Of a stretch of 64,000 nt of DNA, positions 18,552 through 36,672 are shown one piece after another. Under the pieces are notes generated by a model that ran no database searches, had not been told where the DNA came from, and saw nothing but the letters and a program-made list of their open reading frames with translations. Position numbers and translations under genes: made by a program. The stretch is taken from NCBI GenBank assembly GCA_021809435.1, contig JAKBAD010000001.1:558001-622000 (forward strand). The letters run 5' to 3'. Positions within the stretch are counted from its first letter, which is position 1. Each line of letters starts with the position of its first letter. The DNA is from Pseudomonadota bacterium. Its GTDB lineage: Bacteria > Pseudomonadota > Alphaproteobacteria > Acetobacterales > Acetobacteraceae.

Positions 18552-18637
18552 GTCCCTTCACTATTGCGGCCCGGGGTTGCGCGCAACGCCTCTCTTGTCC
18601 ATACCGCTATCGATTTCAGGTATCTACCGGAGCCGCC

Positions 18638-20215: not shown

Positions 20216-20226
20216 GGCGACCCGAC

Positions 20227-21174
20227 ATGTTCTACCGTCCGCTTTTCCGCTTCGTCCCCGACGGCACCAAAATCCGCTTCATGCGCGGTCGCTTCGCCGG
20301 GCTCATCACCTCGGCGGTGCTCTCCACCGCCTCGCTCATCCTGTTCTTCCATCCCGGCCTCAATATGGGGCTCGATTTCAAGGGCGGCGTGGTGCTCGAG
20401 GTTCACACCCAAGCCCCGGCCAATTTCCCCGGCCTGCGCGCGGCCCTGGCCAGCGCCGGGCTCGCCGATGCCAATTTGCAATCCTTCGGCACCGATGGCC
20501 AAGGCGTGCTCATCTCGCTGGAATCCCGCGCAACCGCCGCCCAAACCCAAACCGCCATCACCGAGGCCGAAACCGCCCTCAACGCCGCGGCCCCGGGCGC
20601 CAAAATCCTCTCCACCCAGGCGGTCGGCGCCTCCGTATCGCACCAGCTCTTCGCCCAGGGCCTCGAGGCGCTGGGGCTCAGCTTCACCATGATCCTGATC
20701 TATATCTGGTTCCGCTTCGAGTGGCAGTTCGCGGTCGGCGCGGTGGCCACCTTGGTGCTCGACACCACCAAGGCCGTCGGCTTCATGGTGCTCACCCGCA
20801 TCCCGTTCGACCTCGTCACCATCGCCGCCATCCTCACCGTCATCGGCTATTCCACCAACGACAAGGTGGTGGTCTATGACCGCGTGCGCGAGAATCTGCG
20901 CAAATACAAATCCATGCCGCTGCGCGACCTGATCGACCTCTCGATCAACGAAACCCTGAACCGCACGCTTGGCACCTCGGGCACGGTGTTCCTGGCCGCG
21001 CTGCCCCTGGCGCTGTTTGGTGGCTCCGCGCTCTCGGGTTTCGCCTGGATCATGCTGTTCGGCATCGTGGTCGGCACCTCCTCCTCCATCTTCATCGCCG
21101 CGCCCATTTTGCTGTTCCTGGGCGAGCACCGGCTGCGCCGCTCGGCCACATTGCCCAAGGCGCATGGCAATTAG
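20227..21174 (+). CDS. secF: Protein translocase subunit SecF
   Basis: Partner of SecD, 315 residues with six predicted membrane helices. Landmarks are the N-terminal MRGRFAGLITSAVL helix, GLDFKGGVVLEV, IYIWFRFEWQFAVGAVATLVLDTTKAVGF, and VIGYSTNDKVVVYDRVRENLRK. Last comes LNRTLGTSGTVFLAALPLALFGGSALSGFAWIMLFGIVVGT with the conserved ETLNRT-type loop. It is co-transcribed with secD and the two likely form one operon. Confidence 0.97.
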   Translation: MFYRPLFRFVPDGTKIRFMRGRFAGLITSAVLSTASLILFFHPGLNMGLDFKGGVVLEVHTQAPANFPGLRAALASAGLADANLQSFGTDGQGVLISLESRATAAQTQTAITEAETALNAAAPGAKILSTQAVGASVSHQLFAQGLEALGLSFTMILIYIWFRFEWQFAVGAVATLVLDTTKAVGFMVLTRIPFDLVTIAAILTVIGYSTNDKVVVYDRVRENLRKYKSMPLRDLIDLSINETLNRTLGTSGTVFLAALPLALFGGSALSGFAWIMLFGIVVGTSSSIFIAAPILLFLGEHRLRRSATLPKAHGN

Positions 21175-21259
21175 CCCGGCTTTAAGCTTTTGAGTTTTTT
21201 CATCGCCGGAGCAACAACCGGTCTGTTATGCAGGCCGGCATAATCCCGGACCCAGTCTC

Positions 21260-21988
21260 ATGCCCTCTTCTCGCGGCGCCCAGCTTCTGGCCTCCCTCCG
21301 CCTGCTCTACCAGCCCGTGGTGCGCCTCGCCGACGGCACGCCCAGCTCCGCCGAGGTTCTGGCCCGCTTCGCCGGCGATAATGGTGAAATCACCGGCCCC
21401 GCCGGCTTGTTGGCGGCAATGTCCGATGGTCCCAGCGCCATCGGGCTGAGCGTGGCCCTCATGCGCCAAGGGCTGGCCGACCACGCCGCCGCGGGGCTGG
21501 CCGCGCTGAACCTGCCCCTCGCCTTCAACCTCAAGCTCGATGCCCTGCTCCACCCGGCCCTGCTCGGCCATGTGCTGGCCCTATGCGCCGAGTTCAGCCT
21601 GCCCCCCGCGCAGCTCCGCCTGGAACTCACCGAGGATCAGCCCGTCCACGACCTCGCCGCCACCAGCCACATCATTACCGCCCTGCACCAAGCCGGCTTC
21701 GCCCTGGCGCTCGATGACATCACCCCCGCCATGCCCCACCTCGAAGCCCTGATGGATATGCCGATTTCCGCCGTCAAGCTCGATAAATCCCTGCTTTCAG
21801 GCGCCGATGCGTTTCTCTCCCGCATCATCCCCCACGCCCGCGCGCGCGGCTTGGCGGTGATTGCCGAAGGCATCGAAACCCGCGCCCAGCACGAGGCCAT
21901 GCGCGCCAACGGCGCCACCCACGGCCAGGGTTTTTACTACGCCAAACCCCTCTCCGCCGCCGCGCTGGGGGCGTTTTTGCGGCGCTGA
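21260..21988 (+). CDS. Divergent EAL-domain protein (c-di-GMP phosphodiesterase family)
   Basis: Stand-alone EAL domain, 242 residues, without sensory domain or signal peptide. Recognisable positions are the EVL-variant of the EAL motif (SSAEVLARF), a Glu in LRLELTEDQ, the Asp-Asp pair in ALALDDI, the Lys in VKLDKSLL, AEGIET and the closing GQGFYYAKPLS. The loop after the DD pair (ITPAMPHLEAL) lacks the standard FGTGYSS sequence needed for metal and dimer contacts. The protein may therefore be weakly active or a c-di-GMP binder. It converges on the MBL gene. Confidence 0.85.
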   Translation: MPSSRGAQLLASLRLLYQPVVRLADGTPSSAEVLARFAGDNGEITGPAGLLAAMSDGPSAIGLSVALMRQGLADHAAAGLAALNLPLAFNLKLDALLHPALLGHVLALCAEFSLPPAQLRLELTEDQPVHDLAATSHIITALHQAGFALALDDITPAMPHLEALMDMPISAVKLDKSLLSGADAFLSRIIPHARARGLAVIAEGIETRAQHEAMRANGATHGQGFYYAKPLSAAALGAFLRR

Positions 21989-22043
21989 GCCGGTAAGCTC
22001 CCAAGCCTGGGGAGAGGATTGTAATCAAACAAGCAAGAGAATC

Positions 22044-22086
22044 GGCCCCTTTTTTGTAAAAAAGAGGCGGCCCCAAAAAACTTTTG
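22044..22086 (-). repeat. Terminator-like repeat element, inverted copy
   Basis: Read on the minus strand this is CAAAAGTTTTTTGGGGCCGCC followed by a CTTTTTTACAAAAAAGG hairpin, nearly identical to the element at 24726-24768 but in the opposite orientation. It lies in the convergent gap after the EAL gene and before the MBL stop, so it probably terminates one or both transcripts. Confidence 0.75.
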
Positions 22087-22098
22087 AAACTTAAATTC

Positions 22099-23091
22099 TT
22101 AAGGGCTGAGCGCGAAGCAGCGCCGCGAATCATCGAGCAGCCGCTCCCCCTCCTTGCCGCCCCGCCCAAAACGCTGGCTCAACGCCTCCGCCATCACCAG
22201 CGTATCGTCATGCAGCTCAGCTTCCGGCTCATGCTCCACCGCCCGCCCCTCGGCCTTCAACTTCAGCAAATGCGCCAGCACATTGCGCTGCGCCGCCGCC
22301 TTCAGCATCGGGTCGGTCTTGTGATAAAGCTCCTGCGCCAGCGCCGCGATCGACCAGCCCCGCCCATTCAGCGCCGCCAAAATCGACCGCTCGCGCGCCT
22401 TGCGGTGCGCCAGCATCTCCGCCACCAGCTCGCGCGGCCGCTCAAGCAACGGGCCATGGGCGCTCAAATACACATCGTCATCACGCGCCAGCAGCTTCTC
22501 CAGCGAGCGGTAATAATCGAGCATATCACCCTCGGGCGGCGACACGATGGAAGACGACCAACTCATCACATGATCGCCCGAAAACAGCACCTTCACGCCA
22601 GTCTCGGTGTAAAATTCATAGCATAAATGGTCGGCCGCGTGCCCCGGCGTGTGCACCGCCTTGAACCCACCAATATGCGTGCCGTCATTAAGCGCCAGAT
22701 CGGGCGCAAACCCCGCCCGCGCGCTCACCGCATAAGCCGCCACCGGCGCCCCGGTGCGGGCCTGCAAATCAGCCACGCCCCCCCAATGGTCGGCATGGCT
22801 GTGGGTGAGCAGAATCCGCAGAACCGGCACATCGCCGGCGGCGCGCAAAATATCTTCCGTGTGCGCCAAGCTCTTGGGCCCCGGATCAATCACCGTCAGC
22901 CCATCGGCTTCCTCGATCAGAAAGCTGTTGGTGCCATGATAGGTCATCACGCCCGGATTATCCGCGACCACGCGCCGGATTCCGGGCATCACATCCTGCG
23001 CCACGCCCCTCGGCGGCACATCTTCTTGCAAGAACGCCATAAACCCATCATGCCGCGCCGCAACAGCCTCTGCAAACGCTAACGTCTGCAT
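22099..23091 (-). CDS. MBL-fold metallo-hydrolase
   Basis: Predicted zinc-dependent hydrolase of the metallo-beta-lactamase fold, LACTB2-like, 330 residues. The core is YHGTNSFLIEEADGLTVIDPG, the metal motif LLTHSHADHWGGVADL, the later His in VHTPGHAADH and the Asp in VLFSGDHVM, plus the distal LSAHGP. After residue about 210 comes a winged-helix-like C-terminal segment (AALAQELYHKTDPMLKAAAQRNVLAHLLKL), typical of this subgroup. A shorter start at 23040 (MAFLQEDVPPRG) is equally possible, as neither has a strong ribosome site. Confidence 0.9.
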   Translation of the reverse strand: MQTLAFAEAVAARHDGFMAFLQEDVPPRGVAQDVMPGIRRVVADNPGVMTYHGTNSFLIEEADGLTVIDPGPKSLAHTEDILRAAGDVPVLRILLTHSHADHWGGVADLQARTGAPVAAYAVSARAGFAPDLALNDGTHIGGFKAVHTPGHAADHLCYEFYTETGVKVLFSGDHVMSWSSSIVSPPEGDMLDYYRSLEKLLARDDDVYLSAHGPLLERPRELVAEMLAHRKARERSILAALNGRGWSIAALAQELYHKTDPMLKAAAQRNVLAHLLKLKAEGRAVEHEPEAELHDDTLVMAEALSQRFGRGGKEGERLLDDSRRCFALSP

Positions 23092-23120
23092 AGCGTAAAC
23101 GTCAGCCCTGCGTTACGATC

Positions 23121-23288
23121 TTATCCGAAATTATAAAGCGTCCATAACACGGCCAGCACGGCCAGCGCGCATAACGTGCCCAACACCGCCAGGCGCAAAT
23201 TATGGTGCGCCGGCTCACGTGAGATGGCCCGGTGCGGCGGGTCTTGGGTGGCGCGGGTTGAAACCGCGGGAAACTCTTTCGTATTCAT
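23121..23288 (-). CDS. Small single-pass membrane protein
   Basis: A 55-residue hypothetical protein. The N-terminal half is hydrophilic and basic (about residues 1-32), followed by one membrane helix LRLAVLGTLCALAVLAVLWTLYNF ending two residues before the stop. That arrangement fits a tail-anchored or C-in protein. The start ATG at 23286-23288 has GGGGGATAAGG just upstream. It is located 30 bases upstream of the MBL gene on the same strand, so the two may be co-transcribed. No function can be proposed. Confidence 0.6.
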   Translation of the reverse strand: MNTKEFPAVSTRATQDPPHRAISREPAHHNLRLAVLGTLCALAVLAVLWTLYNFG

Positions 23289-23448
23289 GGCCTTATCCCC
23301 CAAAGCCGCCATGGCGTCTCAAGCCATCTCGCGGCCTGGTTGCTGTTCTTGTGGGCCAATTATGCGCGCGTCCCGGCGTTCTTGGCAACAAAAACCCGCA
23401 AGCCGGCGCCGCTTGCCCTGGCCACGCTGTGCTGGCTACTCTCATGCC

Positions 23449-24708
23449 ATGACCCTGCCGGACCCCGACGCCGCCCTGCGGCGTAATTTACGCCGTCACC
23501 AGTCCATGGCCTCCGGGCTGCTCGGCCTCATGGCTGTTTCGTTCGGCGCCTCGCTCGCCCTGCCCCACGGCCCTGCCGCCGAGTTGCTGCTCGAGGCCAG
23601 CAAGGCCGGCGTCATTGGCGGCGTGGCCGACTGGTTCGCCGTCACCGCCTTGTTTCGCCATCCGCTTGGCCTGCCCATTCCCCACACCGCCATTCTGCCC
23701 GCCCAAAAAGAGCGGCTGGGCAATGCGCTTGGGCGTTTCATCGCCAATCATGTGGTTACCGAGGCCGATGTGAAAAAAGCCCTCGCCACGCTCGACAGCC
23801 CCAGCCTCATCCGGCGGTTTTTATCTGAAAGCACCACCACCCGCCCGCTGGCCGAGGCCCTGAGTTCCATGCTGCCGCGCCTGCTGGCCTCCATCGAAGA
23901 TGGCCGGGCGCGCCGCCTGCTCGCCCGTCTGCTGCCCAAGCTGCTGGGCGGCCAGGCTTCGGGCATCATCGTCGCGCGCGTGCTCCAGGGGCTGGTGGCG
24001 GGCGGCAAACACCAGGAAGTTTTCTCCTTCATCATCCAGAATTTAAAAGAAACCCTCCTGGCCCGCGAGGAGCTTCTGCGCGAGGCGATCAAGGAGCGCG
24101 TATCTGAGCAGGGCGGCAAGCTGGTGGGCTGGGCTTTGGGCGCCACGGTGGCCAAGCGCGTGCTCACGGCGGTCAACCAGGAGCTTGAGCGCATCACCCC
24201 CGATAGTTCTGAAATGCGCGAGGCGTTTGATGAATGGGTGCGGCGCGAGATCGACCGGCTGGAAACCGACCCCGCCCGCGCGGCGGAGCTGGGCGGGGCG
24301 GTGAAATCGGTGCTCTCGCACGAGACCGTGCGCGCCTGGGCGTGGGACATTTGGGCCCGCCTGCGCCGGGCGCTGGAGCTTGATGCCGCCAACCCCCATG
24401 GGCGCAGCGTGGCGGTGATCGAGAGCGCGCTTGCCTCGCTCTCCGACAGTCTGGAGCGAGATGCCAGCGCCAAGGCGCGGGTGGATTCGGCCTTCCAATC
24501 CCTCATCCTGCGCGCCCTGCCCGCCCTGCAAACCGAGGGCGCGGCCTATATTGGCCGGGTGGTGGGCGCGTGGGATACCCGCACCATCACCGAAAAACTG
24601 GAGTTGCGGGTCGGCAAGGACCTGCAATTCATCCGCATCAACGGCACGCTGGTCGGGTTCGTGCTCGGCCTCGCCTTTGCCGGCGCGCAATTGCTGGCCG
24701 GCAAATAA
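23449..24708 (+). CDS. DUF445-family membrane-associated protein
   Basis: A 419-residue protein of the DUF445 (YjiN-like) family, function unknown. The hallmark is the N-terminal helix plus EASKAGVIGGVADWFAVTALFRHPLGLPIPHTAILPAQKERLGNALGRFIANH. A long helical middle follows, and the C-terminus returns to the membrane with RINGTLVGFVLGLAFAGAQLL. The ATG at 23449 gives a normal N-terminus; an upstream extension is without homology. Base composition changes inside the gene from C-rich to G-rich on the given strand. Confidence 0.93.
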   Translation: MTLPDPDAALRRNLRRHQSMASGLLGLMAVSFGASLALPHGPAAELLLEASKAGVIGGVADWFAVTALFRHPLGLPIPHTAILPAQKERLGNALGRFIANHVVTEADVKKALATLDSPSLIRRFLSESTTTRPLAEALSSMLPRLLASIEDGRARRLLARLLPKLLGGQASGIIVARVLQGLVAGGKHQEVFSFIIQNLKETLLAREELLREAIKERVSEQGGKLVGWALGATVAKRVLTAVNQELERITPDSSEMREAFDEWVRREIDRLETDPARAAELGGAVKSVLSHETVRAWAWDIWARLRRALELDAANPHGRSVAVIESALASLSDSLERDASAKARVDSAFQSLILRALPALQTEGAAYIGRVVGAWDTRTITEKLELRVGKDLQFIRINGTLVGFVLGLAFAGAQLLAGK

Positions 24709-24725
24709 CCCCCTTAACCTCAATC

Positions 24726-24768
24726 AAAAGTTTTTTGGGGCCGCCCCTTTTTTACAAAAAAGGGGCGG
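24726..24768 (+). repeat. Terminator-like repeat element after the DUF445 gene
   Basis: AAAAGTTTTTTGGGG leads into a perfect 13-bp palindrome with a two-base centre (24741-24768: CCGCCCC plus T6 and its complement). It is the best copy of a family also seen at 22044-22086 (inverted), with looser relatives at 47366-47395 and 52322-52472. It probably acts as a terminator between the convergent DUF445 and FAH genes. The AT-rich rest of the gap up to 24831 holds no gene. Confidence 0.75.
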
Positions 24769-24831
24769 AGTCAGCTCGCGAACAAGGCACTACACCTAAA
24801 ATTTTACCGTATTTTCAAAAAACTACCCCCT

Positions 24832-25518
24832 CTAAACAACCCGCGTCCGCACCTCGCCCACCCCCGCGATCCGCCCCAGCAGCTCATCGCCCCGCGTCAC
24901 CGGGCCAACGCCCTCGGGCGTGCCGGTAAAAATCAAATCCCCGGGCTTGAGCGTCACCAGCGTGGAGAGCGCCGCGATAATCCCCGCCACCGGCCAAATC
25001 TGATCCGCCAAATCGCCCTGCTGGCGCCGCTCGCCATTGACCTCCAGCGCAATCTCTCCCGCCGCCGGGTGGCCAATCTCAGCGGCCGGGGCAATCTCGC
25101 CAATGGGGGCAGAGGCATCAAACCCCTTGGCCATGTCCCATGGGCGGCGGGCGGCCTTGGCTTCGTCCTGCACATCGCGGCGGGTCATATCCAGCCCCAC
25201 CGCATAGCCAAACACATGGTCCAACGCCGCCGCCTCGGCAATCTCGGTGCCGCCCGCGCCAATCGCCACCACCAGCTCCACCTCATGGTGCAAATTCCGC
25301 GTCGCCGGCGGGTAAGCCATGGCCGCGCCGCCCGTTACCAGCGCATCGGCCGGTTTGGAGAAAAAGAACGGCGCTTCGCGGTTGGGATCGCCGCCCATTT
25401 CGCGGGCATGGGCGGCATAGTTGCGCCCCACGCAAAACACCCGCCGCACCGCGAACAGCCCACCGCCGCGCACCGCCACCGCCACCGGCTGGGGCGGCGC
25501 AACCACATAACTAGGCAA
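24832..25518 (-). CDS. Fumarylacetoacetate hydrolase (FAH) family protein
   Basis: FAH-fold enzyme, 228 residues, acting on a 2-oxo/diketo acid (for example acylpyruvase or 5-oxopent-3-ene-tricarboxylate decarboxylase type). Motifs are [32 protein letters not shown], the metal site [24 protein letters not shown], and [19 protein letters not shown]. The TTG at 25516-25518 is favoured: a perfect AAGGAGG lies six bases upstream and the resulting [11 protein letters not shown] matches the short form of the family. It is divergent from the IalB-like gene. Confidence 0.92.
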
Positions 25519-25570
25519 TGAAACCTCCTTTAACTTGGAACCCGGCGAGGCTTCGTCTATCAGATGAGAT

Positions 25571-26056
25571 ATGAAACGCCTTACCCTTGCCGCTCTTTTG
25601 GCGCTAACCCCGCTCACCGTGCAAGCCGCGCAGCCCTCCGCCCTGGGGGTATACGGCGCCTGGACGGCCGCTTCCCTCGGCTCTGGCAAATCCCGGATCT
25701 GCTACGCCTTCACGCGCGCGCGAGGGTCGTCGATCGCCCTTCACCCCCGCGGCACCGCCATGCTGGCGGTGACCGAGCGTCATGGCGCCCCCGATGAGGT
25801 GTCGGTCACACCCGGCTACACCTACCCCAAATTCGCCAAGGTCGAACTCACCTCCGGCCGCACCCGCGTCACCTTCTCTCCCGCTGGCCAAAACGCCTAC
25901 ACCGCCGATAACAGCCGCGCCGTCGCCGCTTTCCGCGCGGGCAGCACCGCCGAGGTCACCGCCACCTCCCCCGATCACGGCCGCATGGTCACCGACCATT
26001 ACTCCCTCGCCGGCTTCTCCGCCGCCTATGGCGCCATTAAACGAGCCTGCCCGTGA
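25571..26056 (+). CDS. Invasion-associated locus B (IalB)-like periplasmic protein
   Basis: A 161-residue secreted protein. A signal peptide ([19 protein letters not shown]) precedes an IalB-type domain with [25 protein letters not shown], two Cys (C near residue 43 and CP at the end), and [17 protein letters not shown]. IalB was named in Bartonella, but homologues are widespread in free-living alphaproteobacteria and do not imply virulence. Its stop overlaps the rlmN start by 4 bases. The IalB-rlmN order is recurrent in this class. Confidence 0.85.
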
Positions 26057-27210
26057 GCGATCTCACCCAAGCTGAGCGCGAGCGTATTCTCGCCAAGGCG
26101 GCGCTGTTCTCGCCCCCTGTCTACGTTCTCCCCGATGGCCGCCGCGATCTGGTCGGCCTCGACAAGGACGAACTCGCCGTCGAGATGGCCCAGATTGGCG
26201 AAAAACCGTTCCGTGCCAAGCAATTATGGCACTGGATCTACCACCAGGGCGTGCGCGATTTCGGGCTCATGTCCACCATCGCCAAACCCTTGCAGGAAAA
26301 ACTCGCCGAACGCTTCGTCATCGGCCGCCCCGAAGTGGTGACCGACCTGCTCTCGAAAGACGAAACCCGCAAATTCCTGTTCAAATTCCGCGATGAGCAG
26401 GCGGTCGAGACGGTCTATATCCCCGACCGCCAGGAAGATCGCGGCGCGGTGTGCCTCTCGTCGCAGGTGGGCTGCACGCTCTCCTGCCGCTTTTGCCACA
26501 CCGGCACCCAGCGCCTCTCGCGCAATCTGGGCGCGGCTGAAATCGTCGGCCAGTTCATGGCCGCGCGCGATGCCTATGGCGAATGGCCCAGCCCCAAGGG
26601 CGAGACGCCGCGCCTGCTCTCCACCATCGTGCTCATGGGCATGGGCGAGCCGCTCTATAATTATGAGAACGTCGCCAAGGCCATGAAAATCGTCATGGAT
26701 GGCGAGGGCATCGCCCTCTCGCGCCGGCGCATCACGCTCTCCACCTCGGGCGTGGTGCCGATGATGGACCGGGCCGGCGCCGAGCTTGGGGTCAATCTGG
26801 CCATTTCGCTCCATGCCGTGACCGATGAGCTGCGCGACGAGCTGGTGCCGCTCAACCGCAAATACCCGATCCGGGAGCTGATCGAGGCTTGCCGGCGTTA
26901 CCCCAGCGCCTCCAACGCCCGGCGGATCACGTTTGAATATATCATGCTGCGCGGCATAAACGACAGTGAGGCTGACGCGCGTGAGCTGGTGCGGCTGATC
27001 GCCGGTCTGCCGGCCAAGGTCAATCTCATTCCGTTCAACCCCTGGCCCGGCTCGGCCTATCAGCCTTCCACCCCCGAGGCGCTAAAGGCATTCGCCGCCA
27101 TCGTCATGCAGGCGGGCTATGCCTCGCCCATCCGCACCCCCCGCGGGCGCGATATTCTGGCCGCCTGCGGGCAGCTGAAAAGCGCCATGGAAAAGGGCGC
27201 GGCGGCATAA
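26053..27210 (+). CDS. rlmN: Dual-specificity 23S rRNA/tRNA m2A methyltransferase
   Basis: Radical-SAM enzyme that methylates C2 of A2503 in 23S rRNA and A37 in some tRNAs. The 385-residue protein has the 4Fe-4S motif at Cys141, Cys145 and Cys148 (GCTLSCRFCHTGTQ). It also shows VLMGMGEPLYNYENVAKA, RRITLSTSGVVPMMDR, LAISLHAVTDELRDELVPLN and INLIPFNPWPG-like (VNLIPFNPWPGSAY). The C-terminal GRDILAACGQL includes the Cys that forms the methyl-relay. It begins with GTG at 26053 overlapping the IalB-like stop (GTGA). The given strand switches from C-rich to G-rich within this gene. Confidence 0.97.
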   Translation: MSDLTQAERERILAKAALFSPPVYVLPDGRRDLVGLDKDELAVEMAQIGEKPFRAKQLWHWIYHQGVRDFGLMSTIAKPLQEKLAERFVIGRPEVVTDLLSKDETRKFLFKFRDEQAVETVYIPDRQEDRGAVCLSSQVGCTLSCRFCHTGTQRLSRNLGAAEIVGQFMAARDAYGEWPSPKGETPRLLSTIVLMGMGEPLYNYENVAKAMKIVMDGEGIALSRRRITLSTSGVVPMMDRAGAELGVNLAISLHAVTDELRDELVPLNRKYPIRELIEACRRYPSASNARRITFEYIMLRGINDSEADARELVRLIAGLPAKVNLIPFNPWPGSAYQPSTPEALKAFAAIVMQAGYASPIRTPRGRDILAACGQLKSAMEKGAAA

Positions 27211-27300
27211 CCACGCAAAACCACGAATTCAGGGGGTCAAAACCATAAATCCCCAAATTCGTGGCTTTGAAAACCACATAAAACCACACAAACCCACATT
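27211..27300. terminator. AT-rich convergent gap with inverted repeat and AAACCACA-type repeats
   Basis: CCACGAATT (27221-27229) pairs with AATTCGTGG (27256-27264), extended by GGGG/CCCC, giving a hairpin between convergent rlmN and panE. The gap also carries five AAACCACA-like octamers (ends CACG, CATA, CACA, CACA, CCACA) within 80 bases. The hairpin could terminate both genes; the role of the repeats is unknown. Confidence 0.5.
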
Positions 27301-28206
27301 TTACCCGGCGCGGCTGTCGAGTGCGGCAATCAGCCGGGCCAGCCAGCCATTTACCGGCGCCGCCAGCCCGTGGGCGGCGCATTTGCGCAGCACGGCCTCC
27401 CCCAGCATTTCGTTCTCGGTCACGCGCCCGGCCTCGACATCCTGGAGCATCGAGGTTTTCTTTTCGGGATCGAGACGGGCGAGGATTGGGAAAAACGTTT
27501 CGATATCCTCATCGGTCAACCCAATGCCCTCCGCCCGCGCCAGCGCCACCACCTCGCGCCCCGAATCGCGCACCAGGGCGCGGACATGTTCGTTGCCCTC
27601 CCGGAATACGCCATAGGGCATGCGCAGCACCGCCGTGACCTGGTTGACGCTGACATTGAGCAGGAATTTCCACCACAACTCGCGTTGCATGTTTTCGGGC
27701 ACCCGTGAGGGCAGGCCGCAAAAATCGAAATGCGCCTTGATGGCGGCGACACGGGCCGAGGGCGGGTTGTTGAGGGCTTCGCCAAACACCAAGGTGCCAG
27801 GCCGGGAATAGGTGATGACATGGCCCTGGCGCACGGCATCGACCTCGACCGAGAAGCCGTAGAGCAGCTTGTCGGCGCCAAATGCCGCGCCCAGCACCGC
27901 CTCGCTCTCGATGCCATTCATGGCCGAGAGGATGATGGTTTGTGCACCAACAAACGGGCGCATGGCGGCGATCGCCGCGGGCAGCTGCGCCCATTTCACC
28001 GCCACGATGATGAGATCGGCCGGGATTGTCACCGAATCTTCAGGTGAACAGATGGTAACATCGAGCGTCCGGCCGTTGATGTGCACCGGCTCCGCCCGCA
28101 GCCGCGCGGCGCGCGCCGGATCGGCGATGATGCTGAGGCCACCACGGGATAAATGCTCGGCCAGGACCGCGCCGAGTGCCCCGAGGCCGATTAAATAAAC
28201 CTTCAT
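27301..28206 (-). CDS. 2-dehydropantoate 2-reductase-type protein
   Basis: NADPH-dependent ketopantoate reductase (PanE/ApbA family), a pantothenate-pathway reaction type, 301 residues. The N-terminal Rossmann fold reads MKVYLIGLGALGAVLAEHL. The catalytic-region SAMNGIESEAVL is followed by the C-terminal helical domain with LWWKFLLNVSVNQVTAVLRMPYGV, including the conserved Lys and Asn, and a later Glu-rich SMLQDVEAGRVTENE. The ATG at 28204-28206 fits the fold start; an MWN extension is possible. Such families include paralogues with other 2-oxoacid substrates, so panE itself is likely but not certain. Confidence 0.87.
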   Translation of the reverse strand: MKVYLIGLGALGAVLAEHLSRGGLSIIADPARAARLRAEPVHINGRTLDVTICSPEDSVTIPADLIIVAVKWAQLPAAIAAMRPFVGAQTIILSAMNGIESEAVLGAAFGADKLLYGFSVEVDAVRQGHVITYSRPGTLVFGEALNNPPSARVAAIKAHFDFCGLPSRVPENMQRELWWKFLLNVSVNQVTAVLRMPYGVFREGNEHVRALVRDSGREVVALARAEGIGLTDEDIETFFPILARLDPEKKTSMLQDVEAGRVTENEMLGEAVLRKCAAHGLAAPVNGWLARLIAALDSRAG

Positions 28207-28334
28207 ATTCCACATTTTACGCTACATTTCATCGCAAAGGGAGCACTTATTTGCCAGATTTCTGCCACATCCTCCCGCCACCCAGAACCAACCCGGCGGC
28301 GCGGTGCGGCTGGTTTGGCACAGCGGAGGCTTGA

Positions 28335-29027
28335 ATGGCTGTCTATCTCATCACCGGCGGCGCGCGCGGGATCGGGGCCGGCATTGCCCAGCATCTGAAA
28401 TCGGCCGGCCATACGGTCATCATCGCCGACCGGGAAAAAGTGCAGCTGCCGGGCATACGCTCGATCATGTGCGATGTTTCGGATGAGGCGCAGGTGGCCA
28501 GCCTGATGACCGGGATCGAGGCGGTGGAAGGCCGGCTCGATGGGCTGGTGTGCAATGCCGGCTATATGGTGCGCAAACCGATCGAGAGCTTGACGCTCGA
28601 TGAATGGAACGGCGTGCTGGGCACCAACCTCACCTCGACATTTTTGCTGGTGCGGGCTGGGCTTGCCATGCTGCGCGCGGCGCGGGGCGTGGTGGTGACC
28701 ATCGCCTCCACCCGCGCCCATCAATCCGAGCCCGATACGGAATCCTACGCCGCCTCGAAAGGCGGACTGCTGGCGCTGACCCATGCGCTGGCCATTTCCC
28801 TCGGCCCCGATATCCGGGTGAATTGCATTTCGCCAGGCTGGATCAACTCGAAAGCCGAGGCGCTGCGCCACCAGGACCATGTGCAGCACCCCGTGGGACG
28901 GGTGGGGATGGTTGAGGATATCGCCGAGCTGACCGGTTATCTGCTCTCGGGGAAAGCGGGATTTCTCACGGGCTCTGAAATCATCGCCGATGGCGGGATG
29001 ACGCGGAAGATGATTTACGAGGCGTGA
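28335..29027 (+). CDS. Short-chain dehydrogenase/reductase (SDR)
   Basis: Classical SDR oxidoreductase, 230 residues, substrate unknown. It has the dinucleotide motif LITGGARGIGAGIA, CNAG (VCNAGYM), the catalytic Ser in VTIASTRA and the Tyr-Lys pair YAASKGG, followed by RVNCISPGWI. The C-terminal GFLTGSEIIADGGMTRKM closes the fold. It is divergent from panE with a 128-base promoter gap and stands alone on its transcript; the next gene begins 182 bases later behind its own promoter region. Confidence 0.93.
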   Translation: MAVYLITGGARGIGAGIAQHLKSAGHTVIIADREKVQLPGIRSIMCDVSDEAQVASLMTGIEAVEGRLDGLVCNAGYMVRKPIESLTLDEWNGVLGTNLTSTFLLVRAGLAMLRAARGVVVTIASTRAHQSEPDTESYAASKGGLLALTHALAISLGPDIRVNCISPGWINSKAEALRHQDHVQHPVGRVGMVEDIAELTGYLLSGKAGFLTGSEIIADGGMTRKMIYEA

Positions 29028-29143
29028 GCGGGCGGCCCGTCGCCGGCACTCTGCCAAGCCATTGATTTGCACTTAAACTTGCAGGCGGGACTGCGCCAAA
29101 ACGGCGCAGGACCTGGGGAAATTTGACGCGCATCGGCTTACCG

Positions 29144-29158
29144 TTAACCTTATTTTAA
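29144..29158. promoter_or_regulatory. CtrA-type binding site (TTAA-N7-TTAA)
   Basis: TTAACCTTATTTTAA at 29144-29158 matches the CtrA full-site rule TTAA-N7-TTAA, and the left half TTAACCTT is one base from the preferred TTAACCAT. It lies 51 bases upstream of the roadblock-like gene at 29210, in an AT-rich pocket of otherwise GC-rich DNA. No other strong promoter element was found here. Confidence 0.5.
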
Positions 29159-29209
29159 TAAATCTCGCCTCTCGAGCGAGTTGCCAAAATATCAGGATAG
29201 GGGAGACGC

Positions 29210-29776
29210 ATGGCCATTCATCTCGAGCGGCTTGACGCCGCGATTGCTGAACTCAAAACCACGCTGCGCGATGGCCTCATCGCCACCGACATCTGGGACC
29301 GCACCACCGGCCTGCCGCTTGTTGGCCTCAACTCCAACCCCACCGCCGTGGCGCTGCTCACCAACATCATCGCCAACATCAACGATCATCTGGACGCGTC
29401 GGGGTTTCCGCAGCTCGATAAATTCTTTTTCGCCATGCTCGAGAATAACGAGGCGATCATAATCATCGCCCATGGCGAGGATCTGCTGCAAGGCGTGCTG
29501 GTGGATATGAAAAAGACCAATATCGGCGTGCTGCTCTCGGTGGCGTTGCCGCGGATGCTGGCGCGGGTGAATATTCCGCCCGAGCAGGATGCCCTATGGG
29601 CCCGCGCGCTGACCGGACCGGAGCCGAAAGTCTCGGCGCTGGCCACCCGCCTGCTGATTGCCCGCCTGCGCGACGAGGTGAAACGCGCCCCCGACAGGCT
29701 GGCCCCGGCCATTGCCCAGTTGCGCGGCTTTTTCGCCAATAACGCCTTCGCTCTGCGCGACCTCGACACGCTCTGA
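29210..29776 (+). CDS. Roadblock/LC7-like hypothetical protein
   Basis: A 188-residue soluble protein without clear family name. Residues about 20-115 alternate strand-helix-strand like a roadblock/LC7 (MglB-type) domain: DGLIATDIWDRTTGLPLVGL, a helix with ALLTNIIANINDHLD, then FFFAMLENNEAIIIIAHGED and GVLVDMKKTNIGVLLSV. That is a fold-level guess. The C-terminal third is helical and basic (LLIARLRDEVKRAPDRLAPAIAQL). The start has ATAGGGGAG upstream. A FIST-like gene follows after 20 bases, so the two form a unit, probably controlled by the CtrA-type site upstream. Confidence 0.6.
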   Translation: MAIHLERLDAAIAELKTTLRDGLIATDIWDRTTGLPLVGLNSNPTAVALLTNIIANINDHLDASGFPQLDKFFFAMLENNEAIIIIAHGEDLLQGVLVDMKKTNIGVLLSVALPRMLARVNIPPEQDALWARALTGPEPKVSALATRLLIARLRDEVKRAPDRLAPAIAQLRGFFANNAFALRDLDTL

Positions 29777-29796
29777 CCTCTGGAAGTGACAAGCTG

Positions 29797-30795
29797 ATGC
29801 GAAACCTGTTTCTTACCCCCGCCGAGGCGGCGGAGCTTATCGCCGGTGGCGCCATGATGTTCGTGGCCGGCAGCGCCGAGACCCTGGCCACACTGCCCCG
29901 GGGCAAATGGATTGGCGGCTCGACCCCTTATTTCGTGACCCAAACCGGCGGGCGGCTCGATGCCAGCGGGGTGTTTTGCACCGTGCTCGACGAGGCGGAA
30001 AATTACCGTATCGAGATTGTGCCCGCAGGCAAGCTCGACGAGCTGACCAAGGGGCGTTTTGCCAATGGGTTTTCCTATGTGCTGATCCCAGCTTTTTCGG
30101 AGACCTTGCAGCGTTTCGCGCTCGAGGCCCAAAACCTGCCCGATATTTACGCCCAGCCGCTGATTGGCTGGGTGACGGGCATAGACCTCGCCGATCTCGG
30201 CAAGGCCAAGCCGGTGGTGGTGGATGGGCGCGACGGCCGCGCTTATGAGGATGCGGCGGCGGTGATGCATGTGGCGCTCAACCGCACGCGCTCGGCGGAG
30301 GCTGATATCGTCAATCTCTTCACCCCCGATGAGCGCCACGCCATCAGCTTCCCCACAACCGGATTTTCCGCCAGCCGCTGCACCATTGACGGTGTGGAGC
30401 GCGATTTTGCCGCTTGGCTGCGCGAGGTGGGGGCTGATACCGCGCTGCCGCTGGTGTCGTGTTATGCGGGGGCGGTGGTGAATGTGTCACTGCAGGCGGT
30501 GCATGAGGATCATGTGGCGTTTTACGCCCCCGTGATCGCCGGGCGGACTTATCATCTGGCCGAGCGCGTGGCTGATTATCCGCGGGCCTATGGCGTGCTC
30601 TGCGCCGCCCAGCCGCCCCAGGATGAGCAGGCGGGCACGCTCTCGTTCAACTGCATTCTCAATTACCTGCACGCCAACCTCGAGGGCCGCAAGACCGGCC
30701 ATTTCGTCGGGCCGGTCACGTTTGGCGAGATTGCCTATATGCTGCTGAACCAGACGCTGGTGCGGCTGGATTTGCGCGCCGGCAACGTGTTCTGA
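29797..30795 (+). CDS. FIST-like / DUF6976-type protein of unknown function
   Basis: A 332-residue soluble protein. The opening FLTPAEAAELIAGGAMMFVAGSAETLATLPRGKWIGGSTPYF resembles proteins annotated DUF6976. The C-terminal half (VVVDGRDGRAYEDAA...VNVSLQAVHEDHVAFYAPVIAGRTYHLA...GPVTFGEIAYMLLNQTLVRL) resembles the C-terminal region of FIST sensory domains. I assign this from recall of the pattern, not a search. No signal peptide or membrane helix is present. It is co-directional and 20 bases downstream of the roadblock-like gene, suggesting a joint signalling or cell-organisation role. Confidence 0.6.
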   Translation: MRNLFLTPAEAAELIAGGAMMFVAGSAETLATLPRGKWIGGSTPYFVTQTGGRLDASGVFCTVLDEAENYRIEIVPAGKLDELTKGRFANGFSYVLIPAFSETLQRFALEAQNLPDIYAQPLIGWVTGIDLADLGKAKPVVVDGRDGRAYEDAAAVMHVALNRTRSAEADIVNLFTPDERHAISFPTTGFSASRCTIDGVERDFAAWLREVGADTALPLVSCYAGAVVNVSLQAVHEDHVAFYAPVIAGRTYHLAERVADYPRAYGVLCAAQPPQDEQAGTLSFNCILNYLHANLEGRKTGHFVGPVTFGEIAYMLLNQTLVRLDLRAGNVF

Positions 30796-30798
30796 GAT

Positions 30799-31722
30799 TT
30801 ATGGGGCGCGGGTTGCGGCTTTGGGCCAGCGGCGGTGGAGCCACAGCCATTGGCCGGGGGTTTCGCGCACCCAGGATTCGATACGCTGGTTCATGGCCAG
30901 GGTGAGCGCGTACATGTCGCCCTCCTTGCCGCCGGTATCTGGCAGGGTGAGCACGGGCTCGCAGATGACGCGGATGCGTGCCGGGCCTTCGCGCACGGTG
31001 CGCACGGGGTAAATGGGGCAGCGGAATTTGAGGGCGAAGGCGGCCATGGCGTCCATGGTCATGGCGTTGTGGCCGAAGAAGGGGACGGCGAGGCCGGTAT
31101 CGAGCTTCTGATCGACCAGCAGGCCGAGCTGGCCGCCCTTGAGCAGCCAGCCATAAGAGGCCCGCGCGCCCGCCGCGCCCTTGGGGAACATGACCGGCGC
31201 GCGGCCCGTGCCCTCGGCGCGCAGGCGCAACAGGCGCGCATTGACCAGCGGGTTGGAGGCCGCGCGGTACATGAAGGCCAGCTCCATGCCGTGGGCGTGG
31301 GCGGCGCTGGGCAGAACCTCCCAGTTGCCAAGATGGGCGGTGATGAAAATGCCCGGGCCGCCCTTGGCGAAGCTGGGGGCGATATGCTCATCCCACCCCT
31401 CGAGAATATAGCCCGGGCCGGGGGTTTGAGGGCTGATGGCGCCGATGCGGCCAAGATGGGCCAGCTCGCCCGCCGTGGCGCCGAACGAGGCCCAGCATTG
31501 CCTGATGATGGTCTGGCGCTGGGTGGCGGTGAGGGCGGGCATGGCGAGGCGCAGATTGCGCTCGGCCACCTTGGAGGTGGGGATGAACGGCCCGAGCGTG
31601 CCCGCCAGCCAGGCCCCGAACCGCGAGGCGCGCGTGGGGCCGAGCGCCTTGAACAGGGCGATGAGCCCGGCCACCAGCGCGTCCTCCAGCCGGTAGGCGA
31701 TGGTTATTTTATCAGAGCTCAT
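30799..31722 (-). CDS. Lipid A biosynthesis lauroyl-type acyltransferase (LpxL/HtrB family)
   Basis: Inner-membrane acyltransferase adding a secondary acyl chain to Kdo-lipid A, 307 residues. It contains the HX4E catalytic motif in FITAHLGNWEVLPSAA, then MYRAASNPLVNARLLRLR, LLKGGQLGLLVDQKLDTGLAVPFFG and a C-terminal QWLWLHRRWP, all family features. The ATG at 31720-31722 is preferred because the product then starts with a normal LpxL N-terminus; it overlaps lpxK by 11 bases. It is the last gene of the DUF374-waaA-lpxK-lpxL-like operon. Which acyl position and chain length it uses cannot be read from sequence. Confidence 0.9.
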   Translation of the reverse strand: MSSDKITIAYRLEDALVAGLIALFKALGPTRASRFGAWLAGTLGPFIPTSKVAERNLRLAMPALTATQRQTIIRQCWASFGATAGELAHLGRIGAISPQTPGPGYILEGWDEHIAPSFAKGGPGIFITAHLGNWEVLPSAAHAHGMELAFMYRAASNPLVNARLLRLRAEGTGRAPVMFPKGAAGARASYGWLLKGGQLGLLVDQKLDTGLAVPFFGHNAMTMDAMAAFALKFRCPIYPVRTVREGPARIRVICEPVLTLPDTGGKEGDMYALTLAMNQRIESWVRETPGQWLWLHRRWPKAATRAP

Positions 31723-32659
31723 GGAGGAAATATTCCAGTGCGGCCGGGTCCTCCCAGACCAGCCCGGCCCGCACCACCAGGGTGGCGGCGCGCAAGCTGG
31801 CGGGGAGTTTGACCTGATCCTTGGTGGTGGTGACCAGCCGCGCGCCCAGGCGATCGGCCTCATGCAGGAGGGCGGTCAGCTCGGACGGGGCATAAACGTG
31901 ATGATCGGGGAAGGGTTTGGCGGCGCGCAGATCGGCGCCCAGTGCGCGCACGGAGGCGAAGAATTTTTCGGGCCGGCCAATGCCCGCGAAAGCAAGCACG
32001 GGCTGGCCGCGCAGATCCTCGGCGCAGCTGGGCACGAGGCGGGCGCGCAGCACGGGCAAATGGCGCGGCAGGGCGGCCAGGGCGTTGGTTTCATCCTCGC
32101 CGATCAGCACCGCCGCCCGCACACGGGCGCAGGCGGCCGCCACCGGCTCGCGCAGCGGCCCGGCGGGCAGCAAATAGCCGTTACCAAAGCCAAAACCGCC
32201 ATCGATGACCAGGAAGGACAGGGTTTTTTCAACACCGGGGTTTTGCAGACCGTCATCCATGACGATGGCGCTGGCCCCTTCGGCCAGGGCCAGGCGGGCG
32301 CCGGCGGCACGGTCACGCGCGACCATTGTGGGCGCGCGGGCCGCCAGGAGCAGGGCTTCATCGCCCACTTCACAGGCTTGGTGGCGGGCGGGATCGACCA
32401 GGACGGGGCCGGTGAGCGTGCCGCCATAGCCGCGCGTGAGCGCGAAGGGACGGTTGGGGAGACGCGAGAGCAGGTCGAGCGCGACGATGGTTTTGCCAGC
32501 GCCCCCCACCCCGGCATTGCCTACGCAGAGGGTGGGGATGGTAAGGCGAAGGCCGGGGCGCGCCACGCGCCGCGCGGTGAGCAGGCGGGTGATGAGACCA
32601 AAGGGGCGCAGAAGCTGAGCGGGCAGCGTGCGCCTGGCCCAGAAGGCGGGGGCTTTCAT
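31712..32659 (-). CDS. lpxK: Tetraacyldisaccharide 4'-kinase
   Basis: Membrane-associated kinase that phosphorylates the 4' position of the lipid A disaccharide. The 315-residue protein has the P-loop VGNAGVGGAGKTIVALDLL, FALTRGYGG, GDEALLLAARAPTMVARDR, the Walker B-like IVMDDGLQNP, LLPAGPLREP and ALAFAGIGRPEKFF-like (VLAFAGIGRPEKFF). The product feeds WaaA, whose gene lies immediately upstream with a 4-base overlap. Confidence 0.95.
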   Translation of the reverse strand: MKAPAFWARRTLPAQLLRPFGLITRLLTARRVARPGLRLTIPTLCVGNAGVGGAGKTIVALDLLSRLPNRPFALTRGYGGTLTGPVLVDPARHQACEVGDEALLLAARAPTMVARDRAAGARLALAEGASAIVMDDGLQNPGVEKTLSFLVIDGGFGFGNGYLLPAGPLREPVAAACARVRAAVLIGEDETNALAALPRHLPVLRARLVPSCAEDLRGQPVLAFAGIGRPEKFFASVRALGADLRAAKPFPDHHVYAPSELTALLHEADRLGARLVTTTKDQVKLPASLRAATLVVRAGLVWEDPAALEYFLHEL

Positions 32660-33882
32660 GCGCCCAGAATGACGCGGGCGAGGCGCGCGGGCAATTGCGA
32701 GGTGGCGGCGAAGCAGGCCGCCGCCGCCTGCCCGGCCTGCTGGGCGGCCTGGGGGCTGAGCAGCCAGGCGCGCACGGCGGCGCGCAGGGTTGGCTCATCG
32801 GCCACGCGCACCAGGGCGCCGGCTTTCTCGAGCAGCTCAGCGGGGTCCTGGAAGTTTTCGAGATGCGGGCCGGCGATGACCGGACGCGCCAGCAAGGCGG
32901 GCTCGATGATGTTGTGGCCGCCGGGCTCGAACATGGTTTTGCCCATGAAGGTGAACGGGCAGAGCCGGTAGAACAGGCCGAGTTCGGAGAGCGTGTCGGC
33001 GATGTGGACCCCGCCTGGGGCGGGCAGTTGGCCGAGCGCGCGGCGGGTGCTGCCGGGGAGTTGGGCGGCGATTTCGTCCCCCCGCTCGGGATGGCGGGGC
33101 ACGATGATGGTGGTGAGGGTGGGAAATTCGGGGAGCAGGGCGGCGTGGATGCGGGCCGCCAGCGCTTCCTCGCCCCGGTGGGTGGAGGCGGCGAGCCAGA
33201 GCGGGCCGGGTAGCGCGGCTTGCAGGGCGGCCAGGGCGGCGGCATCGGCGGGTAGCGGGGGGGTGACGAATTTGAGATTGCCCGCGACCTCGACACTGGC
33301 CGCCCCCAGCGCGGTGAGGCGGGCGGCATCGGCCGGGCTTTGGGCGAAAATGGCCCGGAAGCCGCCGAGCAGGCGCCTGGCCGTGGCGGGCGCGCGGCGC
33401 CAGTGGCGGGCGGAGGATTCGGAGAGCCGGGCATTGACCAGAAAGCGCGGGATGGCCCGGGCATCGAGCCCCTGAAGCAGGTTGGGCCAGAGCTCGCTCT
33501 CGATGAACACGGCGGCATCGGGGCGCCAATGGTCGAGGAAGCGGGCGGTCCAGCTGGGCACATCGAGCGGGGCGAACTGGTGCAGGGCGGTGGCGGGCAG
33601 GCGCTGGGCGGCGAGCTGGGCGGAGGTGAGCGTGCCGGTGGTGAGCAGAATGCCGGTTTGCGGGCTGAGCGCCTGGATGAGCGGCAGGAGGGATTGGGTT
33701 TCGCCAACGCTGGCGGCGTGCAGCCAGACGAGCCGGCCCGGCGGGCGCATGCGGGTGGCGTGGCCTTGGCGCTCGGGCAGGCGGGTTGGGTCTTCCTTGC
33801 CGCGCTGGGCGCGGGCGGCGAGGTGGCGGCGCAGCCATGGCGCGGCGGCCTGGGCGGCGAAATGATAGAGCGCCAGGATCAT
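32656..33882 (-). CDS. waaA: 3-deoxy-D-manno-octulosonic acid (Kdo) transferase
   Basis: Inner-membrane glycosyltransferase (GT30) that adds Kdo to lipid IVA. The 408-residue protein shows the N-terminal hydrophobic segment and RLVWLHAASVGETQSLLPLI. Downstream are GILLTTGTLTSAQL, FAPLDVPSWTARFLDHWRPDAAVFIESELWPNLL, the acceptor-binding VNARLSESSARHW and the donor-binding GGHNIIEPA. The ATG at 33880-33882 is chosen since a longer frame upstream duplicates the antisense of DUF374. It overlaps the DUF374 gene and lpxK by 4 bases each. Whether it adds one or more Kdo residues is unknown. Confidence 0.95.
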   Translation of the reverse strand: MILALYHFAAQAAAPWLRRHLAARAQRGKEDPTRLPERQGHATRMRPPGRLVWLHAASVGETQSLLPLIQALSPQTGILLTTGTLTSAQLAAQRLPATALHQFAPLDVPSWTARFLDHWRPDAAVFIESELWPNLLQGLDARAIPRFLVNARLSESSARHWRRAPATARRLLGGFRAIFAQSPADAARLTALGAASVEVAGNLKFVTPPLPADAAALAALQAALPGPLWLAASTHRGEEALAARIHAALLPEFPTLTTIIVPRHPERGDEIAAQLPGSTRRALGQLPAPGGVHIADTLSELGLFYRLCPFTFMGKTMFEPGGHNIIEPALLARPVIAGPHLENFQDPAELLEKAGALVRVADEPTLRAAVRAWLLSPQAAQQAGQAAAACFAATSQLPARLARVILGA

Positions 33883-34535
33883 CGGGCGGCCTCGTCCTGA
33901 ACGGCGGTGATGGCGGCTTGGATGGCCGGGAGCGCGGCCTGCCAGCCCCCCTCGCCCACCGCGATGGGCGCGCCGATGACCAGATGAGCGCGCCCGAACG
34001 GAAGGGTCAGGCGCATCTTGTCCCAGCTTTTGAGCGTGATGGCGCGCGCGGCGAAGGCCCCGCAGGGAATGACGCGCACATGCGCCAGACCCGCCAGCTG
34101 CGCGACGCCCGGAGCCGCCACACGGCGAGGGCCGCGCGGACCATCGGGCGTGATGGCGACGTTGGTGCCGGATTTGAGCAGGCGGGTGAGCGCGCGGAAC
34201 GAGGCCGCGCCGCCCTTGGAGCTGGAGCCCGAGACCAGCCCCATGCCGAGATGGATCATGATGTTGCCGATCATCTGGCCGTCGCGGTGTTTGGAGGCGA
34301 GCACCACGGTGGGGCCGATGCCCTGCTGTTTGGCAACCCGCCAGAGGATGGGCATGACCGGCAGGGTCTCGTGCCAGAAGGCGGCGATGACCGCTTCGCC
34401 CGAGCGGGCGGCGGCGGCGAAATGCTCGGCGCCGGTGATGCGCCAGAGCTGGGTGCGCAGGGTGAGGCGGACATAAAGCGCCAGCCCCCAGGCCAGAGCC
34501 GATTGAACAAGCGCGGATTTGAGCAGTGTCTTCAC
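33879..34535 (-). CDS. DUF374 lysophospholipid acyltransferase-family protein
   Basis: A 218-residue protein of the LPLAT (DUF374) family, first in the waaA-lpxK-lpxL operon. Features: N-terminal membrane segment, VIAAFWHETLPVMPIL, VLASKHRDGQMIGNIMIHLGMGLVSGSSSKGGAASFRAL, and NVAITPDGPRGPRRVAAPGVAQLA, typical of acyltransferases that carry a modified HX4D motif. Its association with waaA and lpxK is recurrent in alphaproteobacteria and supports a role in lipid A acylation, possibly of a very long or hydroxylated chain; that is inference. Confidence 0.9.
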   Translation of the reverse strand: MKTLLKSALVQSALAWGLALYVRLTLRTQLWRITGAEHFAAAARSGEAVIAAFWHETLPVMPILWRVAKQQGIGPTVVLASKHRDGQMIGNIMIHLGMGLVSGSSSKGGAASFRALTRLLKSGTNVAITPDGPRGPRRVAAPGVAQLAGLAHVRVIPCGAFAARAITLKSWDKMRLTLPFGRAHLVIGAPIAVGEGGWQAALPAIQAAITAVQDEAAR

Positions 34536-34609
34536 GGGCTGGCGGTAGCATCAAACCAAAGGCAAGGCCACTCTCGGCGCGGCCGGGCGGGCACAGGGGG
34601 GAGACATGG

Positions 34610-35185
34610 TCAGAGCTCCTCGATTTTGCGGGCGGTCTCATCGAGCAGGGTGGCGATGGCTTTGATGGTCTCGGGGCTGGCGGGGGCTTTGAGGCGGAGC
34701 GCGGTTTTGAGGTTTTCCATGGCGCGGATGATCGGGGCCATGGCCTCACGCGGGGGGGCTGAGTGCAGGCGGGCGCGCATGGCCTCGACCGCGTCTTGCG
34801 CCTCGGCCAGGGCGGCGCGGCCGGACAGGGTGATGGTGTAGAGCTTCTTGGCGCCCGCGGCCGTGGCTTCGGCTTGGCCCAGCTCCTCGAGCATGGTGAG
34901 GGTGGGGTAGATGACGCCGGGCGATGGCGCGTAGGCGCCGCCGGTGAGGTCTTCGATGGCTTTGATCAGCTCATAGCCGTGGCTGGGTTTTTGGCCGAGC
35001 AGATGCAGCACGAGCAGGCGCAGATCGCCATGTTCGAGCAGGCGGCGCAGGCCACGGCCACGGCCAAACCCGCCGCCCTGGCCGCAGCCGCCGCCGGGCT
35101 CGAAGGGGCCGCGCATGAAGCGGCGGCCGTGGCGCAGGCCGTCTCCGCCGAGGGGGGTGGTGGAACGTTGGGGAAGAAAACGCAT
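34610..35185 (-). CDS. PadR-family transcriptional regulator (YqjI-like)
   Basis: Winged-helix repressor, 191 residues. The core HGDLRLLVLHLLGQKPSHGYELIKAIEDLTGGAYAPSPGVIYPTLTMLEELG closely follows E. coli YqjI, a nickel-responsive PadR protein. The residues 1-50 extension, where YqjI has a His/Cys-rich metal site, is instead Gly/Arg-rich with one Cys (34) and one His (19). The C-terminal helices (ETIKAIATLLDETARKIEEL) match the dimerisation region. Start ATG has AGGAG 11 bases upstream. It probably autoregulates through the palindromes at 35273-35288. Confidence 0.9.
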   Translation of the reverse strand: MRFLPQRSTTPLGGDGLRHGRRFMRGPFEPGGGCGQGGGFGRGRGLRRLLEHGDLRLLVLHLLGQKPSHGYELIKAIEDLTGGAYAPSPGVIYPTLTMLEELGQAEATAAGAKKLYTITLSGRAALAEAQDAVEAMRARLHSAPPREAMAPIIRAMENLKTALRLKAPASPETIKAIATLLDETARKIEEL

Positions 35186-35272
35186 GGTGTGGGATACTCC
35201 TGGTGGAAAAAAGGCGGGCGGTGCCGCGGCCTTTTGGCCGGATGATACCGGCGCTCGATGGTATTTCGATGT

Positions 35273-35288
35273 TATCTAGATATATCTA
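35273..35288. promoter_or_regulatory. Overlapping AT palindromes, candidate PadR operator
   Basis: Two perfect palindromes overlap: TATCTAGATA (35273-35282) and TAGATATATCTA (35277-35288). They lie about 90 bases upstream of the PadR start, in an otherwise GC-rich 256-base gap shared with the divergent phasin-like gene. Such AT palindromes are typical PadR targets, so autoregulation is the simplest reading. The rest of the gap holds only a GGGCGCGCGCGCCC-type palindrome near 35390-35403. Confidence 0.55.
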
Positions 35289-35441
35289 ATAAGCCGGCCT
35301 GTCAAGAAAATTCCGGCGCGGACGGCGCGCGGGGCGGGAGCTGACCATTGTCAGGTCGGATTTGGCTTGGATGTGGCAGTGAAGGCGCACGGGCGCGCGC
35401 GCCCATGATGGTAACCAAAGACCGTAGGCAAAAGGCCCCCC

Positions 35442-35879: not shown

Positions 35880-35885
35880 GGCGGT

Positions 35886-36602: not shown

Positions 36603-36672
36603 GTTGGTCCTGACGGCGCGTGGCGCCGGTGTTTTTCCAGATTATCTCTTGGTTCTTCGCAGCGTCAATGAC

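Follow-up and report, generated by a model that had tools for sequence, protein, structure and literature searches.

The window, as we call the stretch of 64,000 nucleotides analysed here (positions 558,001 to 622,000 of contig C4 of the Acetobacteraceae genome G000), carries between the convergent genes rlmN and panE a short cluster of decamer repeats at which the plus strand changes from C-rich to G-rich. Clusters of this type were found at 15 sites, and most of them coincide with a switch of the same polarity. Judged by sequence, it is rather probable that this bacterial chromosome is replicated from about 15 sequence-defined origins. G000 comprises 2.65 Mb in 12 contigs (C1, C2 and so on), with a listed completeness of 100% and contamination of 0.29%. 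The relatives found with RlmN are Acetobacteraceae, with a metagenome-assembled genome of Acidocella among the best. We sampled 1.45 of the 2.65 Mb; sampling was concentrated around the clusters, and background rates do not derive from an even sample. For comparison we used a sister species (G032, RlmN 97% identical) and the congeners G001-G018, among them G016 (RlmN 90% identical).

The sequence-only reading had proposed the switch from hand counts of bases. The counts (31 C and 15 G, 28 C and 22 G, 12 C and 31 G, 11 C and 35 G) proved exact on recount, and the change from C-rich to G-rich is real and far beyond chance, with Fisher p values of about 1e-109 and 1e-55 at fourfold degenerate sites. 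In 2-kb windows, GC skew lay between -0.08 and -0.26 over roughly the first 28 kb and around zero at 28-30 kb; beyond about 30 kb it stayed positive to the end of the window, although it came close to zero near 60 kb. The cumulative G-C skew over the window, proposed there as a check, had its minimum at 28,294. By skew and fourfold sites we distinguish a left arm (1..27210), C-rich on the plus strand, and a right arm (27311..64000), G-rich on the plus strand, with the zero crossing at 28-30 kb. Plus-strand skew at fourfold sites of the left arm was -0.42 in plus-strand genes and -0.29 in minus-strand genes; the corresponding values of the right arm were +0.17 and +0.32. DNA outside the 39 listed window genes flipped as well, from -0.16 to +0.14. 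Because the sign changes in genes of both orientations and outside genes, the switch is a property of the DNA strand and not of the genes, as the sequence-only reading had held.

The fourfold-site bias of rlmN and the other left-arm genes was due mainly to exchange between G and C rather than to C-to-T changes. From G016 to G000 the left arm showed 446 G-to-C versus 217 C-to-G exchanges, and the right arm 107 versus 262. A three-way comparison with G032 at 1637 fourfold sites of the left arm assigned 52 G-to-C and 39 C-to-G changes to the G000 branch, 38 and 47 to the G032 branch, and 208 and 97 to either the stem of this pair or G016. Thus most of the shift is older than the split of G000 and G032.

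The cluster (27205..27310, plus strand) was defined by DNA search and by alignment of eight clusters. With the 106-bp spacer between rlmN and panE as query, four partial relatives were obtained, on C1, C2, C3 and C9, and those on C2, C3 and C9 were located at minus-to-plus switches. The alignment gave an invariant core, CCACA.AAA.CCACA, with 23 exact matches in the genome and none in the control; with up to one mismatch the numbers were 42 and 5. Grouping of the matches resulted in 15 clusters: C1:41.2k, C2:92.6k, C3:32.9k, C4:217.6k, C4:585.3k (the window cluster), a pair at the ends of C4 and C12, C6:131.5k, 323.9k, 473.4k and 584.9k, C7:88.7k and 140.9k, C8:75.7k and 143.2k, and C9:27.9k. 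C4 and C12 each end at a cluster, and the pair was counted as one because contig C16 of G032 joins both ends; the gene next to the cluster on the C12 side was identified as ftsZ by eye. No exact match underlies the clusters at C6:323.9k and C7:88.7k, whose matches all have one mismatch. The former (323880-323960) is located inside a called reading frame that, by eye, continues in frame through it. Two matches did not fit and were not counted: a single isolated exact 15-mer at C4:502.1k with negative skew on both, partly sampled, sides, and two overlapping one-mismatch matches at C4:327.9k with no sign change. Isolated one-mismatch matches at C4:431.7k, C4:559.4k and C6:520.8k were likewise excluded.

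Around 77 CCAC[A/G] cores the consensus was the decamer CAAA[C/A/G]CCAC[A/G]. Successive repeats on the same strand were spaced by 10 bp in 32 of 57 cases and by 20-21 bp in another 13. In the window, units of the CAAA[C/A/G]CCACA type form a head-to-tail array with a 10-bp pitch at 27270..27303 (plus strand), with exact core matches at 27274 and 27284 (C4:585274 and 585284). The preceding part of the cluster (27216..27269, plus strand) is predicted to fold into a hairpin of -13.6 kcal/mol (z -3.4; matched by 2 of 200 shuffled sequences), the pairing of which, by eye, is retained in G032 despite different letters. The layout varies between clusters: some are head-to-tail, and those at C6:131k, 473k and 585k are inverted around an A/T tract. 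The orientation of the flanking genes follows no common pattern. With its CCACA the decamer carries the 3' half of a DnaA box; its 5' half differs from that box.

Sampling of the contigs revealed multiple changes of skew sign, and minus-to-plus switches recurred within one contig, with four at clusters on C6 and two inside C4. We scored a switch where the skew was below -0.04 in the 10 kb to the left and above +0.04 in the 10 kb to the right. Twelve of the 14 clusters with both flanks were at such a switch and none had the reversed polarity. The association has a p of 4e-11 if the 183 of 1947 sampled positions scored as switches are taken as chance, a background that is raised by the enrichment of the sampled sequence around clusters. 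More than 6 kb from any cluster, 26 of 1642 positions were scored, all of them in C1:13.5-19k and C6:266-272.5k. As a motif control, plain CCACA clusters were collected by a loose rule; 17 were obtained, and among the 15 with flanks ten were at a minus-to-plus switch and five were not. The corresponding numbers were 14/154 for CACCA, 3/55 for ACCAC, 2/12 for CCAAC, 1/7 for CCCAA and 0/5 for CAACC. AACCC (4/13), ACCCA (4/11), CACAC (3/7) and ACACC (3/4) clusters probably lie inside the CCACA repeats themselves.

The shape of the skew was followed on C6, which was profiled gap-free from 112 to about 602 kb. There the skew leaps at the four clusters, with 10-kb steps of +0.27, +0.17, +0.29 and +0.24, and falls back to zero between them, with steps at the crossings of -0.04, -0.05 and -0.14. 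Measured distances from cluster to cluster ranged from 52 to 368 kb. In seven intervals the plus-to-minus crossing occurred at 0.45, 0.46, 0.72, 0.55, 0.47, 0.57 and 0.91 of the way; the mean distance from the midpoint was 0.124 of the interval (P = 0.0096 versus uniform), with two C4 intervals covered only to 48% and 63%. Crossings near the midpoint are predicted by forks meeting between origins, and are not predicted by inversions.

In the sister species G032 the core occurs exactly 16 times, distributed over 11 loci. All 11 are orthologous to G000 clusters, flanks included, and most blocks are 83-94% identical. The G000 clusters left unmatched are C1:41k, C7:89k, C8:76k and C8:143k. Skew in G032 was negative to the left and positive to the right of 10 of the 11 clusters, and of 8 at the 0.04 threshold; for the orthologue of the window cluster, on contig C45, the right flank is under 2 kb and polarity was not judged. 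Of the 31 G032 boxes in ten orthologous pairs, 28 were in the same column as a G000 box, a match that the alignment may favour. The element windows of these pairs (120 columns) were less alike than their flanks (0.69 vs 0.83). A 10-kb segment ending at the C6:324k cluster is inverted in G032. Among the 18 congeners G001-G018 the exact core was present in four, with 0-3 matches per genome. One cluster is located on a 5.5-kb contig end of G013 (C29:1-5532) that is 97% identical to G032 and then 81%; this end may derive from horizontal transfer or from a chimeric contig.

In G016, 23 of 39 window query genes lie in one block in window order, from a cytochrome gene through rlmN-panE-SDR (a short-chain dehydrogenase/reductase gene) to ate. 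Within the block waaA-lpxK-lpxL is inverted, and FAH, crp, lysR and the genes at 29210 and 29797 are missing. The rlmN-panE spacer of G016 lacks a cluster, and the skew is flat at the junction (-0.077 left, -0.073 right). The same gene order without a cluster and with flat skew implies that the switch arose in place, and most simply it would have done so on the branch leading to G000 and G032.

These data suggest a mechanism in which replication would start at each cluster of CAAA[C/A/G]CCACA decamers. The repeats, being in helical phase, would be bound by an initiator, which may be DnaA acting in a relaxed mode or a different protein, and a pair of forks would depart in opposite directions. 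Forks from neighbouring clusters would meet in broad zones between them, so that the chromosome would be copied as about 15 replicons. The leading-strand G bias would record this fork map as sharp minus-to-plus jumps at the clusters and gradual declines between them. We infer that forks start at the clusters, that the G-rich strand is the leading strand and that an initiator binds the decamers, and what may be said of its identity and of the firing frequency per site is inferred in the same way; DnaA is the simplest candidate. Whether this Acidocella-related lineage and its sister passed on one branch from a single origin to about 15 decamer-array origins, with the hemE oriC silent or minor and a eukaryote-like replicon map, is in our estimate evenly balanced.

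The window switch is not the canonical oriC. The sequence-only reading had noted the absence of dnaA, parAB and hemE nearby, which is correct: dnaA is on C12 (82 kb), and hemE (90 kb) and parB (99 kb) are on C8, parB adjoining the sole parS-like palindrome (2 mismatches). No parS was found within the window. Upstream of hemE, at C8:91.3-91.6 kb, there is an intact-looking oriC with several DnaA boxes, TTATCCACA, TTATGCACA and TTATCCACG, and the gene beyond them is presumably that of DUF299. A layout of hemE, DnaA boxes and DUF299 is that of the textbook alphaproteobacterial oriC. In common with it, the window shows a switch of skew and contains CCACA, one half of the DnaA box; unlike it, the window has no hemE, dnaA, parAB or exact TTATCCACA box (a scan of the sampled sequence gave 9 exact matches, 0 of them in C4:558001-622000), and its switch is not unique. 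Thus the proposal of an origin held in so far as the site is origin-like, one of about 15, most with the same type of cluster, and failed as to the canonical oriC, which lies on C8. A search for dif sites gave 7 matches at 3 mismatches versus 3 in the control, none of them convincing.

Several observations speak against replication from the clusters. The strongest objection is that the canonical oriC has no footprint in the skew. At C8:91.4 kb, where the hemE oriC is intact, the 10-kb means are +0.124 to the left and +0.157 to the right, and the nearest minus-to-plus switch is 15.7 kb off at C8:75.7 kb. It follows that either this oriC hardly fires or the skew does not report all initiation. 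In addition, the C-terminal region of DnaA, from the RELEG motif to the end, has a single residue specific to the G000/G032 pair among 14 aligned DnaA sequences, and this near absence of change makes another initiator or recombination-type initiation possible. No initiator candidate was found among the called genes nearest to the clusters, judged by eye, or in a family search on ten window genes only. In the 100 bp flanking the clusters on each side, GC content does not fall below 0.56-0.57, and no large AT-rich unwinding region is seen. Two weak clusters also fit poorly: left of C8:143k the skew is -0.006 and negative only in the nearest 6 kb, and left of C1:41k it is +0.059, the right flank there being sampled for about 4 kb. 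The crossing of the C8 interval, at 0.91, is off the midpoint. The tRNA genes were uninformative, since 9 of 18 were on the G-rich strand and thus showed no preference (30 tRNA genes in the sampled sequence, 18 of them where |skew| > 0.05). Finally, two switches have no cluster, at about C1:15.5k and C6:269k.

Both of these regions have features of their own. C1:15400-29700 carries a tRNA fragment and, by eye, an integrase-like frame at 15.4-16 kb and a tRNA-Thr gene at 29.67 kb, and is probably an integrated island that gives a skew switch without a cluster. C6:269000-288000 is a 20-kb patch of reversed skew with no cluster at either edge, which may be an inversion, an island or the trace of a lost cluster.

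The canonical oriC without a skew footprint and the lack of a DnaA change that would explain a new specificity would also be expected if the clusters were hot spots that load forks without DnaA, via R-loops or recombination, a route known from stable DNA replication and from recombination-dependent replication in archaea. In that case, too, forks would run outwards from the clusters, and their one G-rich and one A/C-rich strand could favour R-loops. We consider this unlikely: the phased, binding-site-like boxes kept between the two species suggest a bound protein, and simple loss of rnhA is apparently not the cause. Against R-loop-dependent (oriK) replication through such a loss speaks an RNase HI homologue at C1:39173-39586 (54% identity over 138 aa, E 4e-41). 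If the sign of the skew were reversed in this lineage, sharp and gradual points would look identical for clusters that act as Ter-like fork barriers, where forks end sharply, having started diffusely between them. Bacterial leading strands are as a rule G-rich, and such barriers would conflict with this rule if it applies to the present lineage; they would also need many diffuse origins, and the canonical oriC, 15.7 kb away from a cluster, is surrounded by positive skew and does not coincide with a crossing from plus to minus. Fork barriers therefore appear quite improbable to us.

We give equally little credence to some other strand-asymmetric process of mutation or selection centred on the clusters and unrelated to fork starts. 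The predominance of G/C exchange, which is not the plain C-to-T signature, would suit it. Yet the bias extends over about 100 kb irrespective of gene strand, for which no process except fork direction is known, and crossings at the midpoint would not be expected. The sequence-only reading had also named an inversion endpoint or an assembly join. Repeats are indeed present at the switches, the inverted G032 segment lies beside one cluster, and the C6:269-288 kb patch resembles a reversed segment. However, inversions give both kinds of switch and no cluster was of the plus-to-minus kind, the longest near-exact match to the window cluster elsewhere is 29 bp, and the synteny check proposed there found rlmN-panE-SDR and both flanks in order in G016, where the skew is flat, and in G032. 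At the window an inversion or wrong join is thus refuted, and as an explanation of the switches in general it is very unlikely.

In the multi-origin archaea Sulfolobus and Haloferax, origins lie beside orc1/cdc6 initiator genes; G000 differs in that inspection by eye revealed no initiator gene next to any of its clusters. Like G000, the chromosomes of these archaea are described as having several minus-to-plus skew changes each (PMC3269012), there at two or three sites and in G000 at about 15. Some cyanobacteria with a canonical DnaA gene are reported to initiate at multiple origins (PMC7198777); as far as the accessible part of that report goes, irregular skew is described for them and defined sites are lacking, whereas G000 has discrete sites sharing a motif and regular skew domains. 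Suggestions of several origins in bacteria (Wolbachia, Wigglesworthia, Mycoplasma pulmonis and predicted double origins) were based on skew or predicted boxes (PMC3269012, PMC4403523), the same kind of inference as ours. In the accessible parts of these articles they show no common new element per switch and no syntenic relative lacking both element and switch, as G000 has. The available text on SkewDB notes that an inversion or a faulty assembly could equally account for such peaks (PMC8941118), and bacteria use one origin according to the available text of PMC10331603 and PMC12809603. In the titles and abstract openings of the open-licence literature no description of such clusters was found, nor any work on Acidocella with GC skew. 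If replication does start at the clusters, about 15 sequence-defined sites and a syntenic relative without the one in the window would make it directly testable why bacteria keep one origin, and the lineage would offer a new pair of initiator and site.

The genes around the window cluster were assigned by Pfam matches. The left neighbour, rlmN (26053..27210, plus strand), matches RlmN_N and Radical_SAM. The right neighbour (27301..28215, minus strand) is a panE/apbA-type ketopantoate reductase gene with ApbA and ApbA_C. It is followed by the SDR gene (28335..29027, plus strand; adh_short_C2), the order of the three being that conserved in G016. Further to the right, a TTAA-N7-TTAA sequence at 29144-29158, which has the form of a CtrA box, is located upstream of a gene for 188 amino acids (29210-29776) without a Pfam match.

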